Part shown: one piece after another, positions 5,326-43,604 of the stretch
How the letters are laid out: each line of letters starts with the position of its first letter
How positions within the stretch are numbered: the stretch's first letter is position 1
Assembly (NCBI RefSeq): GCF_025602895.1
Contig: NW_026516428.1
Coordinates: forward strand, 1-46,518
Origin: Polychytrium aggregatum
Lineage: Eukaryota; Chytridiomycota; Chytridiomycetes; Polychytriales
Reading direction: 5' to 3'
DNA length: 46,518 bases
Program-made: the position numbers and the translations under genes
The notes under the pieces: generated by a model
The model's input: only the letters and a program-made list of their open reading frames with translations
Databases searched by the model: none
What the model was told of the DNA's origin: nothing

Positions 5326-6348
5326 TCACTTTGGCAGCCTCCGAGTGAACACCGCCGGTCGCTCTCCGATCTCCACAATCGACCTGCATACTGTGATCAT
5401 GTTGCGCGCCGCATTGACGTCGCGATTCCACACTGTCCGGCAGCTGGGATTCTTGCAGCTCCTGACAAAGTGGGAATTCGCAACACTGGGCGCATCGAGT
5501 CCTTCCAACCGAACTGGCTCCAGGCACTTGGAGCACACCTGCGAGGTGTTGAACTCGTTCGTCGAGACTACCTTGACGCTTCCATGATGGTGATTGGGAC
5601 GGCGTCGGTGGTGCTCGAATTGCTCAAAGTACCGAGCAAACCGCTGCCTCCGAGGGCTGGATGCATAGCCCTTGCCCTGTCGCCATGACGCATTGCCAAA
5701 GGCGATCACCACATCGGTCCGTATTGGGGCGTGCTTCAGGACGGCCTTGCACATCTTGTCGACGGTCACTTGGCGTCTCCTGTGGCCCGTGAATCGATGG
5801 TGACGGGCCTTCTTGCCAAGGTGGAAGTCGAGCTGCACTCGCAGCTCCGGTCGCAGGACATGGGTGAGATGGACCTTGAAGGCCTCCGAGGACGACACCT
5901 TGGGCGAGGGAGTGGTCGACATCCAGGTCTCGATGCTGAGTCGATACTTCATGATATTGTGCCACTTGGTGTTGGACGTATGGCCACACATTTGCTGGTA
6001 GTGGCCATTGGAGAATGAGACCACCTCGTCTTGGTGGCCTGGTGCTTGGATGACCGCCGTGAAGATGGAGCCGACTCCAGGATCGATGCCAATCCAAGTG
6101 GTGCGATCGGGGTTTGGGTCGCCGATGTGGGCCTGGATACGCTGCTCGGCAGTCGGAGGAGGCTCGATGGTCTCGGTGTGATCGGTTCGAGGCAGAAACT
6201 TGACGAGACCGATGGTGCATCCAATGCCATCGGTGCTGATCTCGTAGTTGAACAGCTTCTTGTCCCTGACCCGCTCTTGGAAGAGGGAACTACGCAGCTT
6301 GAAGCAACTGCGCCAGAGACGATCCTGGTTGTTGATGCCGTCCGTCAA
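5326..6348 (-). CDS. Fanzor (eukaryotic TnpB-like RNA-guided nuclease), N-terminally truncated ORF
   Basis: The open frame of about 340 codons carries the C-terminal core of a Fanzor/TnpB protein. RuvC-I is WIGIDPGVGS (D89). The region VVIAFGNASW follows, then NEFNTSQVCSKC (E265; C272, C275), a second Cys pair (C298, C303) completing the zinc finger, and WNRDVNAARNM with the last catalytic aspartate (D310). The canonical RuvC-II Glu position appears occupied by the FG of AFGNA. E265 would then be the alternative acid, as reported for Fanzors with a rearranged active site; this is from memory. Family members are typically longer, with N-terminal wedge/REC parts that are missing here. The frame opens at TTG, the first internal Met is at about residue 120, and an in-frame TGA lies just upstream, beside a dispersed repeat. 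It is a broken copy, or its upstream exons are unrecognised. Confidence 0.85.
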   Translation of the reverse strand: MTDGINNQDRLWRSCFKLRSSLFQERVRDKKLFNYEISTDGIGCTIGLVKFLPRTDHTETIEPPPTAEQRIQAHIGDPNPDRTTWIGIDPGVGSIFTAVIQAPGHQDEVVSFSNGHYQQMCGHTSNTKWHNIMKYRLSIETWMSTTPSPKVSSSEAFKVHLTHVLRPELRVQLDFHLGKKARHHRFTGHRRRQVTVDKMCKAVLKHAPIRTDVVIAFGNASWRQGKGYASSPRRQRFARYFEQFEHHRRRPNHHHGSVKVVSTNEFNTSQVCSKCLEPVRLEGLDAPSVANSHFVRSCKNPSCRTVWNRDVNAARNMITVCRSIVEIGERPAVFTRRLPK

Positions 6349-16900: not shown

Positions 16901-19375
16901 TCCGATTCTCTTGGCGCTGCTGCAGACCTTGGCAAAAACAACGTCAACCTCAAGACCGTGGCACTGCTGCCCGTCAATGGAATCACCCCCATAGCCGAGT
17001 TTGCCGACAAGCTTGGCGATGCCCTCGAGCTCATCGGCGCCAGTGTCGCTCGTCTCAATACCTCTGCGGTTATGAGCAAGCTTGGAAAGCACGCTTTCAA
17101 TCGCCTTGGAAGACTCAAGTTGAACAACTGGCTTGCCGAACAGGAAGAAAGCTACAGGATCGTTCTCTATATTGCCGACGGCGGCGTGAACGCACCGTGG
17201 ACACAACGGTGCATCCGTCAGGTAGATCAAAGCCCACGCGGCAGTTGCTCAGCAGCTCCGCCTGGATACCAGTCCAGGCGAACGCACTGAGTTCGGCCTG
17301 TCCTGTCCTGTCCTGTCCTGTCCTGTCCTGTCCTGTCCTGTCCTGTCCTGTCCTGTCCTGTCCTGTCCTGTCCTGTCCTGTCCTGTCCTGTCCTGTCCTG
17401 TCCTGTCCTGTCCTGTCCTGTCCTGTCCTGTCCTGTCCTGTCCTGTCCTGTCCTGTCCTGTCCTGTCCTGTCCTGTCCTGTCCTGTCCTGTCCTGTCCTG
17501 TCCTGTCCGCGTTGACTGATTTGTTTCTAACCAGCCTTTGATCACATCCCCATTCTTATGGCGCCTCCTCCAACCACGGACTCATTATCTCATCCTTGGT
17601 GGCGATGATGCTTGCCACATAGGCCGACTGTATTCTGTTAGTTGGTCTCGGTGACGGCGATCCATCGATTGGAGAATTTGAGCGACTCCTGCTCGGTATG
17701 AAGACTACGGCTCGCAAAGAACTCGTTCTTTTGCACTCAGAGCGCCGATGTCAATCAGGAAGCACCGCACGGTGGCTGAAAAACCGGCTCTGGATCCATG
17801 CCCATCATCATGTATGTCGTCGGCCTCAATGCCGGTTCATCCACTGGGCGGTACCGTGGTATCCCACCCCAAACCAACCGAGTTCCTTCGACTAGATGTT
17901 GTGGCTTGTTGTTTCCGGGTTCGTTAGGCTGATCCAATAACTACAAAGACGCATCCTCGCTCACAATTCCCACCCCCGTTACCGATCCTGCTGGTGTCCT
18001 AGGTCCACATGCCGATCATTGGTCCCAAGATCTTCAATGACAGCCGTCGGCAGGGTACTCTTCTTCATTTGCGTCATCTGCGAGGCCAGCTCTCCAAGTA
18101 TTATGCTCAGGTGACCGCAAAGGACTTCAAGGCAGATCACTCTGCCATGACCTCGCCCAATATCTATACCGGCATTCGATCGGACTTTGCGCGTCTTTCG
18201 CGCAGACTGCTGTCCCGCTCAATCGGCCTTGTCCTCGGCGGAGGTGGAGCCCGTGGCTTGTCTCACCTCGGTGTGATCCGAGCATTCGAAGAAGCCGGCA
18301 TTCCAATCGATATGGTGGGCGGCACAAGCATCGGCAGCTTCGTGTCGGGCCTCTACGCCCGCGAAAACGACCATGTCTCGATCTATGGCCGAGCAAAATC
18401 CTTCAGCGGCCGAATGACCAGTGTCTGGCGCCAGCTTATGGACCTCACATACCCTGTCACCAGCCTATTCAATGGCCACGAGTTCAATCGTGGTATATGG
18501 AAGGTAAGCTTAGTGTCTCGTCTGGGAACAGCAAGGCCGTTTTTCGTGTGTAGCTGGGAGGGTATTGGATCGCGACATTCAGGTACAGATTGATTCTCTT
18601 GGAACCATCCGGGGTTGCCAGCGCCACCGTCCAGCGGCTGGCTGGGTGAGCGGATAGGCGTGTACTTGCTAATGGGACGGCTCAGGCCAAGTCTGACTAA
18701 CACACACGGCTCGATGCGCGCCAACAGTGCTTTTCCAATACCCAGATTGAAGACTGTTGGCTCTCCTTCTTTGCAGTGACCACCAACATAACGTGGTCTC
18801 GAATGGAAATCCACCAGAAAGGCTACATGTGGCGCTACATCCGCGCGTCAATGTCGCTCTCGGGATACCTGCCGCCACTGTGCGACAACGGCAACATGCT
18901 TCTGGACGGCGGTTACCTCAACAACCTGCCGGCAGATGTTATGCGATCGCTTGGCGCCGAGACGATCGTGGCTGTAGACGTTGGCAATGTCGACGACACT
19001 TCACCTGTGAACTATGGCGACACGCTCTCGGGCTGGTGGGTGCTACTGCGGCGCTACAATCCCTTTGAAAAAACCGACTATGGCAAGATCCCACAACTCG
19101 CCGACATCCAGTCGCGCCTGGCGTACGTGTCGAGTGTCAAACAACTCGAGGAGGCCAAGCGAGTCGAAGGGTGCTACTACCTGCATCCGCCTGTTCACAA
19201 GTACGGCGTCCTGAGCTTTGATAAGTTCCAGGAAATTTACGAGACCGGCTACCGGTTTGGTCAAGACATTGTCCAAAAGTGGGAGAAAGACGGTACCCTG
19301 CAGAAACGGTTTGGGGTTCGTAAGGACGACGGCAAACCAGGCAAGACTGGGCACGCTCGTCGTGCCTCTATATAG
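13930..19375 (+). CDS. NTE1: Lysophospholipase NTE1 (patatin-like, cyclic-nucleotide-binding domains)
   Basis: Six exons join with intact frame: 13930-14653, 14919-16154, 16368-17221, 17623-17811, 18003-18503 and 18728-19375, giving about 1383 residues. A membrane segment at about 38-65 anchors the N-terminus in the ER. Cyclic-nucleotide-binding-type domains follow (starting near residues 120, 590 and 690). The C-terminal patatin domain has LGGGGARG at about 1079-1086, the nucleophile elbow GTSIG with S1110, and the DGG dyad aspartate D1228. The family deacylates phosphatidylcholine and lysophosphatidylcholine to glycerophosphocholine. Segments such as [10 protein letters not shown] and WLKNRLWI match the family well and confirm the splices. 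The length is in the usual range, somewhat shorter than the yeast protein. An upstream in-frame ATG at 13846 is an alternative start. Confidence 0.93.
17297..17508 (+). repeat. (CCTGT)n microsatellite in an NTE1 intron
   Basis: About 42 uninterrupted copies of the pentamer CCTGT fill half of the 401-nt intron 17222-17622. The unit is strongly strand-asymmetric (no A on the + strand, pyrimidine-rich), which places a C/T-rich block upstream of the acceptor at 17621-17622. The flanking exons join RQ to ADCILLVG, as expected for NTE1, so the tract is intronic. Confidence 0.95.
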
Positions 19376-20117: not shown

Positions 20118-21347
20118 CTATTCCAGCTCGAGGAGGGTCTGTCGCTTTCGGTTCACCACCAGTCGAGTTACATCGGGGCGGGAGTAGTGACCGGCCAAGT
20201 CAAAGTTCTGGCGCTCCTCGCGAACGCGCTGATGATTCAGGACCACAACGACAACGGCTTCTCTGCCGACGATGGGCTCAAGGACCCATCGACCGTCGGG
20301 ACCGGCGACGCACGAGCCGCCGTTGGCAAACGATCCCGATGAATGGGCCTTGATTTCGGCTGCCTTCGGGATATCGTCCGGAATATCATCGGCGTGCATT
20401 GTGCTGCTGACAGAGATGACAAAGGATCGGGATTCTTGGGCAATGAAGCGAGTGATATCCTCGGTGTTGCGCAGATTGCCAGGCCAAAGGGCAATATGGA
20501 GATCCTCGCCTGGAAGCAAGGAGCGGAGAGGTCAAGACGAAAGCGTTGATGGTGAGTGGTAGACATGGAGGGTCAGAGCCTGGCGAAACCTGACCGACAA
20601 GACTCAAACCATGCGAGCCAATGAGAAAAGCAAGCATCTGGATCATAGTCCAAGGCAGGCATCAATGGCCGATCGTCCAATATCCGGAACAAACCTACCT
20701 TGAGCATAGAGGGCCGCTCTGGAGAGAGGCATCCAGTTCTCGAAGCAGTTGAGGGTTCCGCAGGTGAAGCGGCCGAGTGGATGCACAACTAGACCATTGC
20801 CATCCCCCGGCGACCAGGCCAGACGTTCCTGTTTGGGATCAAGAGGTGTCAGCGACAAGGCTCTCCGATAGTCGTCCGCCACCAGCCCAATGCCGGTCTT
20901 TACCTCATAAGTTGGGCAGAGCTTGCGATGAGCGCTGGCAATCGTGCCGCGGGCGTCGATCGTGACTGCCGTGCAGTAGAGGCTGTGTCCTCCTCGGTCC
21001 TTTGGACGCTCGATGGTGCCGAGAACGACAGCGATGCTGAGCTGCCGGGCAAGAGCGCAGACAGAGTCAAGGTGGCCATCTTCGATGCAAACAGCTTGAT
21101 CCATGTAGTGCGCATGGATCTCCTTCTGAAGCGGATGGTCCCAGCGAGCGGCATCGGTGCGCTCAAGCCACCAGGGATAACCAGGGACGAGAGCTTCGCC
21201 AAAGACGACCAGCTGGGCGCTCTGTTGGGCAGCCTCGCGGATGGCCTCATGGACCTTGGCAAGGGTTTTGGTGCGGTCGAGCCAGACGGGGGTGATCTGG
21301 GCCAGGGCGACCCGGACTTCGTCGGTGGAGGCGTCTGCAAAGGCCAT
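20118..21347 (-). CDS. Nitrilase (carbon-nitrogen hydrolase)
   Basis: Two exons (20699-21347 and 20118-20509) join at a split glycine codon to give 346 residues. The catalytic triad is visible: E51 in FGEALVPGYP, K142 in HRKLCPTY and C201 in LNCFENW. The protein closes with family-like sequence (ESRSFVISVSS, GSFANGGSCVAGPDGR). Nitrilases hydrolyse nitriles to carboxylic acids and ammonia through a Cys thioimidate. Between the Lys motif and the ERLAWSPGDG segment lies an extra stretch of about 25 residues compared with typical nitrilases, where PT is followed closely by ER. The cysteine context CFEN differs from the common CWEN. The ATG at 21347 (MAFADAS) was chosen since VRVALAQ follows within ten residues, as in the family; the frame stays open farther upstream. 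The substrate is unknown. Confidence 0.9.
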
Positions 21348-21818
21348 GGGAGCAGCAGAATCGATCGGTGCAATCCGAGATGAAAAAGACGGATCTGGAG
21401 CAGCGCTTGTGGGGACGAGATCTTGGGCGACGGCGTTGTCGTGGGTCCTTCCCGAGAATGGCGTCAACGAGAACCACGATCGCCGAGCAGCGCCGGGTGA
21501 GACGGTTCAGGGCTCGGGTGTCGATCAGAGTCGTCCGATTCACAGCCCACACAGCCCACGCCGGCCAACAAGTCGGTCATCCGCGTGTTGGGGGTGTATT
21601 GTTTCCGAGTGAGTTTGCTGCCCAGAGCGCAGGTTCTCGATATCGATAAATGGGTGTGTATTTGGAGCGCCAGGGAAAACAAAAGGCAGCAACCAGCAAT
21701 CGAATCAGGCGTGCGCGTGATCCGTGTCGTTCATGGCATTAAGGAAAAAGAAAGAAATGCATACAGGGGAGGAGTTGTGGAGGGGACGCAGCGATGGCAC
21801 ACATCTTTGCCAGATCAA
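21348..21818. other. Intergenic between nitrilase 5' end and OTC 3' end
   Basis: This stretch probably holds the nitrilase promoter/leader and the OTC 3' UTR. The nitrilase reading frame remains open to about 21467 but without an ATG. The A-rich segment around 21740-21760 lies just downstream of the OTC stop. No other gene is seen. Confidence 0.45.
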
Positions 21819-23246
21819 TCAGTCATCGCGGGCACGGATCATGAGCATCTCATAGACAGACATGACCGTGTACTTTCGGTTCTCAGCCTCGGGGAAGACG
21901 ATCGACCGGGCAGGGTTATAGAAGACCTCGTCGTCAACCTCTTCTTTCTTGCGGGGCAGGCAGTGCATGAACTTCCAGTTGGGTTTGGCATGGCCAGACT
22001 TGGCCATGGCCTCGGTGATCTGGTGACAGAGGAAACCGAGAGCGGCAGGGAGCGAGTCAGCAAATATCACAGCATGTGACAAATCGCGACAACGGCAGCA
22101 GCAAGAACAGGGTGATAAGCAGGGTCAGACCCAGGGCACGAGTGTTACCTGGTAGCCGGCAAACTCCATCAGGCGCTTGGCTTTCTCGGCCTCTTGGCCC
22201 ATCGAGACCCAGGTATCGGTGATGATGACATCGGCGCCGTTGATGGCGACGAGCGGGTCGGTGGTGAAGCTGATCTCGCCATACGATTCGTCGCCGTTTT
22301 CGCCGCCACGCGAGTTCTTGAGGGCGAACTCGACAACGTCAGACTCGGGCTGGTAGCCCTTGGGTGTGGCAACCGAAAACGAAATGCCAACACGGGGCAA
22401 AGTGGTCATGAGAGAATGCAGGATGTTGTTGGCATCGCCAACCCAGGCGACCTTCAGGTTCTTGAATAGCGGAAGGGGAAGGGGGCCCTCGTGATCGAGA
22501 CAATCGGGAAGATAGGTCTCGTAGAGAGTCATCAGATCGGCAAGGATCTGCAGCGGGTGGAACTTGGCCGTCAACGCGTTGATGACGGGAACCGTAGAAT
22601 GAGCCGCCAAGGTCTGCAACAGGGAGGACATGGAAACGGTGAGAAGTGACGCACAAAAGGCGAAGCAAGGATTGGGTGGTCAGAAGACATGCGATACGGG
22701 CGAACGAGCGACAGGACGGAACCACCAACACAAAACACCTACCTCAATCTCAGAGTGCTCGCCAACTCGGGCCAGGATAGCGTCAACCATGCTACTGACG
22801 ACAATGGCAGTGTCCATCAGGGGCTCTCCGCCAGAGATCTGGATGTCCTCCTTGCCCAAAAACATGGGATGGCCACCAAAGTAGGCCCATCCGGCCTCGG
22901 CAGAAACACGAGTACGGGTGCTTCGCTTGGTGAAGATCATGGCAAGAGTCTTGCCCTTGAAAGGGAGAGAATTGGGGGTCGAGTGCGTCGACTCGGCCTT
23001 CATGAAGGCCTTGATTTCCAGGGCCCGGCGCACGAGCGAGAGAACCTGAGGAGTCGAAAAGTCCTTGAGGGCAACAAAGTGCTTGACGCCGCCAAAGCAG
23101 ACATCAGGTCCGCCGTAGGGGATGTGGTAGAATGCCTTGCGCTGGGCAAGAGAGTTGGACAGGGTGGGAACAAGACCCTTGGGGGCGGGGCCGCCGAAGG
23201 AACGGGCAACGGAGGCCTGGGACGAATGCTTGAGGATGGTGTTCAT
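21819..23246 (-). CDS. Ornithine carbamoyltransferase, mitochondrial
   Basis: Three exons (22743-23246, 22149-22613, 21819-22019), all in phase 0, encode 389 residues. OTC condenses ornithine and carbamoyl phosphate to citrulline in arginine synthesis. The carbamoyl-phosphate loop is STRTR at 109-113. HPLQ at about 187-190, VSMGQE (the ornithine-side SMG loop) and HCLPR at 342-346 are all present. The first 35 residues are rich in Ser, Arg and Lys and lack acidic residues, fitting a mitochondrial presequence. Residues 37 onward ([17 protein letters not shown]) begin the mature part. The ATG at 23246 is 47 nt downstream of the stop of an arginine-attenuator-like uORF, which suggests translational repression by arginine. 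A gene symbol such as ARG3 or argB depends on the species convention. Confidence 0.95.
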
Positions 23247-23293
23247 TGCAGCAGATCGATACGAATCACAGAGAGGACGGTGCGGGATGCGAT

Positions 23294-23587
23294 TTATAGA
23301 CCGGAGGTTTTCCAGATCTGGCGGGGCACCAAGGTGAAGCGAAGGTCGGGTCAGAATCAACGAGCAGACTGCGAGAATCGATGAGGGAGAGGGATGGGAG
23401 ACCGGTGGATTGGCAGCATCATTCGTGATCGGGCGCAAAGCCGAGCGGGGACTGGGGGGGTGTGCGACGGCAACCAGAGAGGCGAGCGAAACACGGCGAT
23501 AACACCGAGACAAGCAGCGGCACTTACTTGGTCAGAGATGTAGTCAAGCTGGACTTTTTCAGACGTGTGGATGTAGCAACAAATCAT
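23294..23587 (-). CDS. Arginine-attenuator-peptide-like uORF in the OTC mRNA leader (spliced)
   Basis: The ATG at 23587 opens a frame whose exon runs to 23528 and ends LDYISDQ. A canonical intron (GTAAGT donor at 23527, CAG acceptor at 23318) is followed by exon 23294-23317 reading IWKTSGL and a TAA stop. The spliced peptide is 27 residues: D15-Y-I-S-D19, then I21-W-K-T-S25. Fungal arginine attenuator peptides on CPA1/arg-2 mRNAs have the core DYxSDHxW; yeast has DYISDHIWKTS. The near-identity appears only after joining two exons, which makes chance unlikely. The known peptide stalls the ribosome at the uORF stop when arginine is abundant, which blocks reading of the main ORF and triggers mRNA decay. 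If the intron is retained, the frame instead runs about 76 codons to 23357. That this leader controls OTC is inference from position. Confidence 0.85.
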
Positions 23588-23699: not shown

Positions 23700-23707
23700 T
23701 TATATAT
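23700..23707 (-). promoter_or_regulatory. Candidate TATA box of the OTC transcript
   Basis: TATATAA on the minus strand lies about 115 nt upstream of the uORF ATG, in an otherwise GC-rich region. This spacing suits a transcript carrying the uORF. It was recognised by eye only. Confidence 0.4.
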
Positions 23708-23771: not shown

Positions 23772-24040
23772 GCGATGACGGGCCGGACACATGACCGCGC
23801 GCACAAGGCCGTGCGCAGCGCGTTGCCGTGCGACGGCGGGCGGACACGGCGTGGCGCAGGCGCACGGGACGCGCCACGGGACTGGCTGCGGCTGCGCATG
23901 TGCGGCTGGCCACGGGCTGGCCGGGAGGGACGTGTGGCAGTGCCGGTGCACGTGGTCAGCGATGGTGTCGCCGAGTGTGGCGGTGAGTGTCGCAGAGAGT
24001 GGACGATGGGCGTCACCGACCATGTGAGTGCACAGCCGAA

Positions 24041-24132
24041 GATCAATGCCACAGACCAATGCTGCAGACCAATGCTGCAGGCAAATGTCGCAGACCAATG
24101 CTGCAGATCAATGCTGCAGGCAAATGTCGCAG
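24041..24132 (+). repeat. 13-bp minisatellite
   Basis: Seven tandem units alternate between ACCAATGCTGCAG-like and GCAAATGTCGCAG-like versions. The last six form two copies of a 39-bp higher-order unit. Five of the units contain CTGCAG or a one-base variant. The array sits 200-300 bp upstream of the SH3-protein start. Confidence 0.85.
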
Positions 24133-24338
24133 GCGCTCTGCGCCCAAGGGCACATGCGTGACAGATGCGTCACAGCCTCGCGATTTTGGCCCGCGCCGTG
24201 TCACCAGTCGTTTCGTCACCAGCCTCATTTCTCCACCATCTCTCCTCCACCATCTCTCCTCCTGCATCGTCTCTCCTCCTGCATCATCTCTCCTGCACCA
24301 TCTCTCCGTTCCGCACATCGCCATCGGCACTCGTCGGC

Positions 24339-41248: not shown

Positions 41249-43604
41249 TCACCACCAGATGTAACCCAGCATCCCTCGCTTGCTCTTCTCAATGGCTTTG
41301 ATCTTGGGGTCGGCTTGGTCATTGCCATGTTGGTGAGTCCTCTTGTACCAGCTGAAGGCAGTGTCAACGTCCTTGGTGACGCCAAGACCACTTTCGTAGC
41401 AGAGACCAAGGCTGAATTCGGCAGGCGCATATCCTTGGTCCGCTGCTTTGGTATACCATTCAACCGCCTTGCGGTAATCTTGGGTAGTTCCCCTGCCCTT
41501 CTCGTAGCAAACGCCGAGCATGTGTTGGGCAGCTGCGTCGCCATGCTCTGCGGCCTTGTTGTACCATTCGACTGCCTTGACGTTGCTCTGAGCAACCCCT
41601 TGGCCATTCTCAAAGCAGGAACCGAGCCTGTATTGCGCAGTGGTGTCGCCTTGATCGGCTGCCTTGGAGCACCACTCGACAGCCTTCTCGTAACTCTGCA
41701 CGACTCCACGGCCGTGGTAGTAGCAATCGCCGAGATGGCTCTGGGCAGCGACATGTCCCTGGTCGGCCGCTTCGCTGTACCAGTGAGCAGCGTTGATGAT
41801 GTTTTGGGACACTCCCTGACCTTCCTCGAAGCAGCGGCCTAGTTTGTACTGAGCGTCTGCGATTCTCTGGTTGGCCGCCTCTGTGTACCACTTTACGGCC
41901 TTGGTGTAATCTTGGTCGATGCCATGCCCTTCGTAATAGCATTCGCCCAGGCTATACTGAGCAGAGGCATGGCCTTGCTCGGTAGCGCTGGTATACCATT
42001 CCACTGCTTTGACATAGTCCTGGGTGACTCCTTGGGCGTTCTCAAAGCAAGTACCGAGCGAATATTGCGCTTTTGCGTTGCCGCGCTCAGCCGCCATGGT
42101 ATACCATTCGATGGCCGCGGCATAGTTGCGTTCGACGCCCCGACCATAATGATAGCAGAGCCCGAGCATGTACTGGGCACCCGGATTCCCCTGTTCGGCC
42201 ACCTTTGTGTACAGTCTGGCGGCCTGGACGTAGTCTTGATCGACTCCCCGACCGTAAAAATAGCAGGAAGCGAGGCCGTGCTGAGCGGCCATGTTTCCCT
42301 GCTTTGCGGATTTTGCGTACCACTCTGCGGCCTTGGCGTAGTCACGGACAACGCCACGGCCGTGGTGGTAGCATTCGCCAAGATTCCACTGGGCGACGGC
42401 GTTTCCTTGATCGGCGGCCTTGGAGTACCACTCGGCAGCTTGGCCGTGGTCTTGCACCACTCCTTCTCCCTTTTCGTAGCAAGTGCCAAGGATCAACGAG
42501 GCGGCGGCACTTCCCTGGTTGGCGGCTTTGGTGTACCACTGGACGGCTTTGAGATGATCCTGGGAAGCCCCTTGCCCCATTTTGTAGCAACTGGCCAAGA
42601 TTAGTTGAGCAGCGATGTGGCCTTGTTCGGCAGCTTTGGTGTACAGCTCGAGAGCTTTGTTCTCATCTTTGCTGAAGCCGATGCCGTGATGATGGCAAGA
42701 TCCGAGCTGAAACTCTGCATACATGTTGTCTTGTTCAGCAGACTTGCGCATCAACTTGATGGCCATCCACGGGTTCTTTGCGAGCCCCCAGCCGTTGAGA
42801 TAGCAGGACCCTGTCCAGTATTGGCTATCGCTGAGGCCCTCGCCGTCGAGCTTTTCAAATAGTTCTACTGCTTTGGCTTGGTTCTGGGCCGTTCCGAAGC
42901 CGTGGATCAGACATACGGCCACAAGATGCCTGGACAGCCTATCCTGCTCCGAGCCGAGCTGGCAGAGCTCAAAGAACCTGCGGGCGACAGGAGAGCTCGA
43001 AGACGACAGCTTTCCCTCGACCGCAGCCATGCATTCGTCCTCACCAAGAGGAAATTCCGCCGACTTGTTCTCCCGGATGAGTCTGGCGCCCATCATGCGA
43101 TCCTGCTGAGTGCCTAAACCAAGATAGTACATCCAGCCGAGCATGTGGGTTGCGATTGGCCTGAATACTTTGTCGGTGGACTTGCTACTGACTTCATTCC
43201 AGTACGAAAAGGCGTCTGTGTGCCGCTGCGCACACACCGAGCCCTGAGAGATGGAGCCAACCCAGATAGAAGTAGGCCTCGAGGCTCTTGGATTTGGCAA
43301 GATTGCGGTAGATCGGCCGGCGGTATCCAGCAGAGGTGTCTGTTCCTTGCTGATCGGATCGACCCCTGCTCAGTTTGAAGAAATCCTTGATTGCCTTGGG
43401 TGGTCTCTTCGCGCGGAGCTCTCCAGCTTGGGTCAGGAGACGGGCAGCGACTTGATGATGAGCATCCTTGTCGCCAGCCTGATATCGATCTATGAGGAGG
43501 AGCGGGATATCGTGATTCACCGGAAGGTCGTCATCGCAGAGCCCGAAGGTGGGGGGCGGAGGCTGGGGTGTTTCGACGGGCTGGGTTTCTCCGCGTGCTG
43601 CCAT
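41249..43604 (-). CDS. Sel1-like repeat protein (frameshift near its N-terminus)
   Basis: The long frame 41249-43300 encodes about 680 residues with at least a dozen 36-residue Sel1 repeats (A.AQY.LG.CY..G.GV.QDY.KAVEWYTKAA), for example YMLGLCYHYGRGVERNYAAA. Sel1/TPR-like solenoids are protein-binding scaffolds. The first repeats lie in another frame. The frame from ATG 43604 (MAARGETQPVE) contains LEAYFYLGWLHLSGLGVCA, which should continue into QRHTDAFSYWNEV in the main frame; the switch occurs at about 43225-43240. The ATG overlaps the stop of the upstream kinase frame (TAATG). In fungi such repeats often follow a kinase domain in one protein, so kinase and Sel1 parts were probably one gene. 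The end is IWW before the stop at 41249. Confidence 0.8.

Follow-up and report, generated by a model that had tools for sequence, protein, structure and literature searches.

Ornithine carbamoyltransferase (OTC) in Polychytrium aggregatum is encoded behind a short upstream open reading frame (uORF) whose predicted spliced product resembles the fungal arginine attenuator peptide (AAP), and related uORFs precede the genes for both subunits of carbamoyl-phosphate synthetase, CPA1 and CPA2. The AAP-like character of the OTC uORF is well supported as a sequence prediction, with a resemblance far beyond chance. We assign a probability of about 80% to the reading that the three uORFs form a set of AAP arrest peptides that would co-regulate the synthesis of carbamoyl phosphate and citrulline by arginine. 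The window analysed (i.e., the whole stretch of 46,518 nucleotides) carries the OTC locus on its minus strand; the sequences, reading frames, positions, common residues and stop spacings given below are direct observations. The features of the locus, in order of transcription, were as follows.

23701..23706 (minus strand): TATA-box-like TATATA in the sequence, 119 nt 5' of the uORF start codon (uATG), a candidate promoter element
23528..23587 (minus strand): uORF exon 1, MICCYIHTSEKVQLDYISDQ, 20 codons, ending in phase 0
23318..23527 (minus strand): predicted intron within the OTC uORF, 210 nt, GTAAGT...CAG
23294..23317 (minus strand): uORF exon 2, IWKTSGL followed by a TAA stop in the sequence
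23247..23293 (minus strand): spacer of 47 nt from the uORF stop to the OTC ATG
21819..23246 (minus strand): ornithine carbamoyltransferase gene, 389 aa, TIGR00658 at 332.8 bits against a cut-off of 280.85

The OTC gene model has two predicted introns of 129 nt each (22742-22614 and 22148-22020), beginning with GTAGGT and GTAACA and ending with CAG, with CTCAC/CTGAC sites that precede their ends by 30-70 nt. By eye the N terminus of the protein is of mitochondrial type; its best solved relative, 3sds, is named as a mitochondrial OTC and is presumably the enzyme of the fungus Coccidioides. A carbon-nitrogen hydrolase (nitrilase-like) gene follows OTC on the minus strand (20643-21383, PF00795), and a GCAGACCAATGCT-like unit occurs upstream, at 24040-24140, in short tandem repeats.

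The uORF reads MICCYIHTSEKVQLDYISDQIWKTSGL before its TAA stop when positions 23587-23528 are joined to 23317-23294. The original prediction had placed a uORF of 27 codons 47 nt before the OTC ATG, and its coordinates, codon count and spacer were borne out by the sequence; the two exons also meet at a GTAAGT/CAG junction as claimed, where splicing is predicted. A branch-point-like CTGAC (23354-23350) begins 37 nt before the 3' end of this leader intron. Counting from the TATATA (23706) to the OTC ATG (23246), the spliced leader has only two ATGs, that of the uORF and that of OTC itself. With the intron retained, the uORF would extend to 76 codons and be without the C-terminal half of the core. 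A second copy of OTC was located on another contig (C51), where the uORF query matched at equal score; aligned over 3,069 columns, the two loci show 99.7% identity.

Genome-wide, a DNA pattern for DYIxDQ found 6 sites in 64.7 Mb (418 contigs) compared with 2 for the reversed control; since this count alone is not strikingly enriched, the weight rests upon the positions of the sites, all six of which are in the leaders of OTC, CPA1 and CPA2 (three loci, present as pairs of near-identical copies). The paired copies of the OTC, CPA1 and CPA2 loci (99.7%, 99.8% and 99.5% identity) are taken as haplotypes. The two further uORFs are the following.

L008:3402-3476 = G000:C364:448901-448975: CPA1 AAP-like uORF, 24 codons, unspliced, with F in place of the classical W
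L011:1814-1477 = G000:C1 exons 1376971-1376948 and 1376684-1376634 (minus strand): CPA2 AAP-like uORF, 24 codons, predicted to be spliced

The CPA2 uORF (loci L011 and L013) reads MYHHISEK, is interrupted by a 263-nt GT..CAG intron, and continues as VSNDYISDQVYKSLSA to a stop located 132 nt before the CPA2 start; unspliced, it would run for 227 codons and overlap CPA2, ending 214 nt beyond the first base of that gene's start. Two further ATGs are found 235 and 223 nt upstream of its uATG. CPA2 was identified with TIGR01369 on the first 230 residues, and CPA1 with TIGR01368 on a fragment of 163 residues and with PF00988 above its cut-off; the TIGR01369 and TIGR01368 scores fell under the full-length cut-offs because pieces alone were scanned. 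The N terminus of CPA2 looks mitochondrial, its frame continues as two long open stretches (256 and 1,014 codons) and then a stop, and the gene would encode a free-standing large subunit, probably of the arginine-specific type. A third PF00988 locus, on contig C24 with a frame of 2,080 codons, was taken as CAD/URA2. The separate CPA1, CPA2 and CAD-type loci fit a fungal genome, as does the fungal transcription-factor domain PF04082, which scored above its cut-off here and occurred in 0 of 14 prokaryote genomes used as controls. The suggestion that the sensor controls OTC either as well as or instead of CPA1 can thus be narrowed to its first half: CPA1 and CPA2 carry AAP-like uORFs of their own, and "instead of" falls away.

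Several unrelated features were recorded in passing. An ORF at 5326-6348 of the window (minus strand) has a Cas12f1-like/TnpB domain (PF07282) and is possibly a Fanzor-type protein; a similar ORF was seen by eye downstream of CPA1 (L008:6452-7858). A protein with 14 Sel1 repeat stretches is encoded at 41249-43300 (minus strand), and a simple repeat at about 17290-17541 gives a frame of CPVLS repeats.

The C-terminus of the OTC peptide, DYISDQIWKTSGL, was compared by eye on the alignment with the yeast AAP, DYISDHIWKTSSH, and 3 of the 13 positions differ. The Neurospora crassa AAP was verified here as PDB entry 2xl1. In classical AAPs an aspartate is needed for stalling (D12 in N. crassa), and the tryptophan following the core is also necessary. 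From this core aspartate to the stop there are 13 residues in the OTC, CPA1 and CPA2 peptides and in 2xl1; the aspartate is D15 at OTC, with a corresponding D at CPA1 and CPA2, and the residues M, D, Y and D are invariant across the five aligned peptides. The tryptophan position (W19 in 2xl1) is W22 at OTC, F at CPA1 and Y at CPA2, so that OTC alone of the three keeps W. The predicted leaders give uORFs of 27 (OTC), 24 (CPA1) and 24 (CPA2) codons, compared with 24-25 in classical AAPs; the yeast peptide has 25 residues according to PMC8370653, and its critical aspartate is D13 (PMC7969011). At two positions where yeast and Neurospora agree, the peptides of this genome depart from them, H being replaced by Q in all three, and W by F or Y at CPA1 and CPA2, respectively. 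Thus the OTC core is AAP-like as originally proposed, with the sequence, the core-to-stop distance and the pathway of its gene in agreement.

With the three peptides aligned at the stop, the residues H, E, K, V, D, Y, I, D, Q and K are common to all within the last 21 codons. Their codons differ synonymously at 7 of these 10 positions, which points to selection on the peptide. The EKV sequence is common to the three peptides of this genome and absent from those of yeast and Neurospora, which suggests either common descent inside the lineage or co-evolution. Introns are predicted after Q20 at OTC and K8 at CPA2, with none at CPA1; since they stand at different places they were probably gained or lost independently. 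Interruption of the peptide by a predicted intron, first noticed at OTC, recurs at CPA2 in another position. BLAST comparison of the three leaders gave a 42-nt match of 88% between the CPA1 and CPA2 uORFs and elsewhere between genes only stray matches of up to 18 nt, so that a recent duplication of whole leaders is unsupported. A PDB sequence search with the OTC peptide returned five chemokine matches with E of 1 or more and did not retrieve 2xl1, and a profile built from the three peptides gave 0 matches; 2xl1 was found with a profile that itself included the two classical AAPs.

The substitutions bear upon what the peptides would respond to. They may descend from an AAP and slow or arrest ribosomes without sensing arginine, or they may sense another compound (e.g., ornithine or citrulline, both of which OTC handles), in which case the Q, F and Y residues would represent a changed ligand or decay; the change of H to Q in three copies and the missing W of CPA1 and CPA2 are what might be expected from this. 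However, OTC keeps the W along with 10 of the 13 residues of the yeast peptide, the genes involved belong to the part of arginine synthesis that leads from carbamoyl phosphate to citrulline, and the synonymous differences at 7 of 10 common residues oppose decay. We regard such a loss or change of ligand as unlikely, and arginine-responsive AAPs as the preferred reading.

The splice sites in the OTC leader permit another arrangement, in which the upstream exon, wholly or in some transcripts, is the start of a longer OTC isoform (e.g., one with another targeting sequence). There are 38 ways to place a single intron of at least 50 nt between the uATG and the OTC ATG, and nine of them give a stop-free, in-frame extension of OTC; among these, a GTGCCG donor at 23523, lying 4 nt past GTAAGT (window 23523-23527), would fuse the exon in frame to OTC using the same acceptor. 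The donors for such extensions (GTTGCT, GTCTGA, GTGCCG, GTCTCG and GTGTTA) are nonetheless all less like GTAAGT/GTRAGT than the donor that gives the AAP; an AAP core within the extension would be without reason, OTC already has a presequence-like N terminus, and the intronless CPA1 copy forms a closed uORF. A longer isoform is accordingly very improbable next to the AAP-like uORF.

The resemblance was measured against chance as follows. Every unspliced or singly spliced uORF of 15-45 codons was taken as a candidate (donors GT[AG], acceptors [CT]AG, introns of 50-600 nt), and BLOSUM62 was used to score its last 13 residues against the AAPs of N. crassa and yeast. The scores were 53 for OTC, 40 for CPA2 and 37 for CPA1. 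In 283 tiles of 600 nt, taken from both strands of the window and six other loci with the tiles containing the OTC uORF excluded, the maximum was 18; in 4,000 dinucleotide shuffles of each leader the maxima were 23 (OTC), 18 (CPA1) and 23 (CPA2). Across six whole loci of 6-9 kb, both strands, no score exceeded 24, a value reached on the antisense strand of one 9-kb locus. Although uORFs are common in fungal leaders, a chance likeness (i.e., an ordinary uORF whose peptide has no role, or an unused intron and hence no uORF) is highly implausible with a score of 53 against control maxima of 18 and 23 in which single-intron choices of the set kind were allowed, and with the core repeated at CPA1 without an intron and at CPA2 with the intron elsewhere.

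Five further loci of the arginine pathway and CAD/URA2 (one copy each) gave no AAP-like uORF in a scan of 1,500-2,700 nt lying 5' of the codon first matched by the profile, or directly before it. The scores were as follows.

C7: argininosuccinate lyase, best upstream score 14
C79: argininosuccinate synthase, best upstream score 5, whole-locus sense maximum 18, downstream of the first matched codon
C47: N-acetylglutamate synthase/kinase NAT-domain locus, best upstream score 16, whole-locus sense maximum 12
C19: N-acetylglutamate synthase/kinase NAT-domain locus, best upstream score 13, whole-locus sense maximum 11
C386: ArgJ, best upstream score 5, whole-locus sense maximum 11
C24: CAD/URA2, best upstream score 8, whole-locus sense maximum 5

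Other patterns were applied to the genome. A stricter one, DYhSDxhW, gave 0 sites, as expected because the intron splits the OTC core and because CPA1 and CPA2 are without W. A relaxed one, D[YF]hxD[HQ]h followed by an aromatic-like codon, had 8 sites compared with 1 for the reversed control; four of these are CPA1 and CPA2, and the four at C11/C83 and C112/C407 were set aside as chance, their frames far overrunning the AAP stop distance (one copy each, L021 and L024). The pattern EKVxxDYh gave 6 sites against 0 in the control, four being OTC and CPA1 and two being C124/C401, of which the C124 site was rejected as lying inside a frame of 941 codons. In viral_contigs, DYISD[HQ]IWK had 0 matches and the OTC protein 0 relatives; DYIxDQV[FY]K had 7 matches there, none of which (0/7) stops at the AAP distance, with downstream frames of 43 to 562 residues. 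No relative from a fungus emerged from these scans.

The classical AAP stalls the ribosome at the uORF stop and its aspartate is required (PMC7969011); the stall in yeast and Neurospora is caused jointly by arginine and the nascent peptide, low arginine permits leaky scanning to CPA1, and the stall feeds mRNA decay (PMC7969011, PMC6492140 and PMC11550727, with PMC7049704 on Cryptococcus). The uORFs described here share with the classical CPA1/arg-2 AAP a length of 24-27 codons, a D-Y-I/L-S-D-x-I/L-W-K/R core, 13 residues from D to stop, and a place in the leader of an arginine-biosynthesis gene. They differ in occurring on OTC and CPA2 in addition to CPA1, in the peptide introns at OTC and CPA2, and in having Q for H, and F or Y for W at CPA1/CPA2.

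The original prediction knew of no AAP on an OTC gene, and our search was in line with this: neither OTC nor CPA2 was found to be described with an AAP in the open literature searched, a body of work that leaves some key studies of AAP evolution, requirements and mechanism outside it. None appears in the available text of PMC5487733, PMC2075485, PMC3368165 and PMC5640933, and "arginine attenuator" combined with "chytrid" gave nothing in the open literature searched. Within that literature, the nearest published AAP-like uORF away from CPA1 is that of the Toxoplasma arginine transporter (PMC8370653). The Toxoplasma gondii ApiAT1 uORF is likewise AAP-like, on a gene other than CPA1 and dependent upon its aspartate; the yeast AAP partly substitutes for it, and arginine-dependent repression was demonstrated for ApiAT1. 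There, the gene is one for uptake in a protist and the peptide has 33 residues, whereas here the genes are biosynthetic, the organism is a fungus, and there are three per genome. The MAGDIS uORF of mammalian AdoMetDC, as described in PMC4505036, provides a more distant likeness, i.e., a nascent peptide stalling at a uORF stop on a biosynthetic mRNA in response to a product of the pathway, as proposed here; MAGDIS is polyamine-responsive, and its peptide and ligand are unrelated.

By analogy with the classical cases, the nascent AAP together with arginine would hold the ribosome at the uORF stop of OTC, CPA1 and CPA2, and under arginine scarcity OTC would be made through leaky scanning (or reinitiation). 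For these leaders we infer the transcription start, splicing, translation, arginine dependence and stalling. Since a sensor of this kind also stands on the mRNAs of both carbamoyl-phosphate synthetase subunits, a single signal would attenuate all three proteins. Splicing would assemble two of these sensors, those of OTC and CPA2. The retained-intron forms, with 76 codons and an incomplete core at OTC and 227 codons reaching past the start at CPA2, would thus repress without arginine. At CPA2 this could provide a second gate, where intron retention would give arginine-independent repression and splicing would give arginine-dependent attenuation.

Somewhat less firmly than the co-regulation itself, we favour the view that one arginine sensor spread over CPA1, CPA2 and OTC, which are on different contigs, constitutes a translational regulon, that the sensor at two of these genes arises only through splicing, and that splicing may serve as a second gate. 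A sensor that seems to govern several genes invites two questions: how a peptide of this kind moves from leader to leader, and why it should be common to three proteins in a single segment of the pathway. The W/F/Y series at a single position, together with Q for H, would provide natural variants for learning how the ribosome and peptide recognise arginine, and the three-gene AAP set is amenable to existing cell-free assays.
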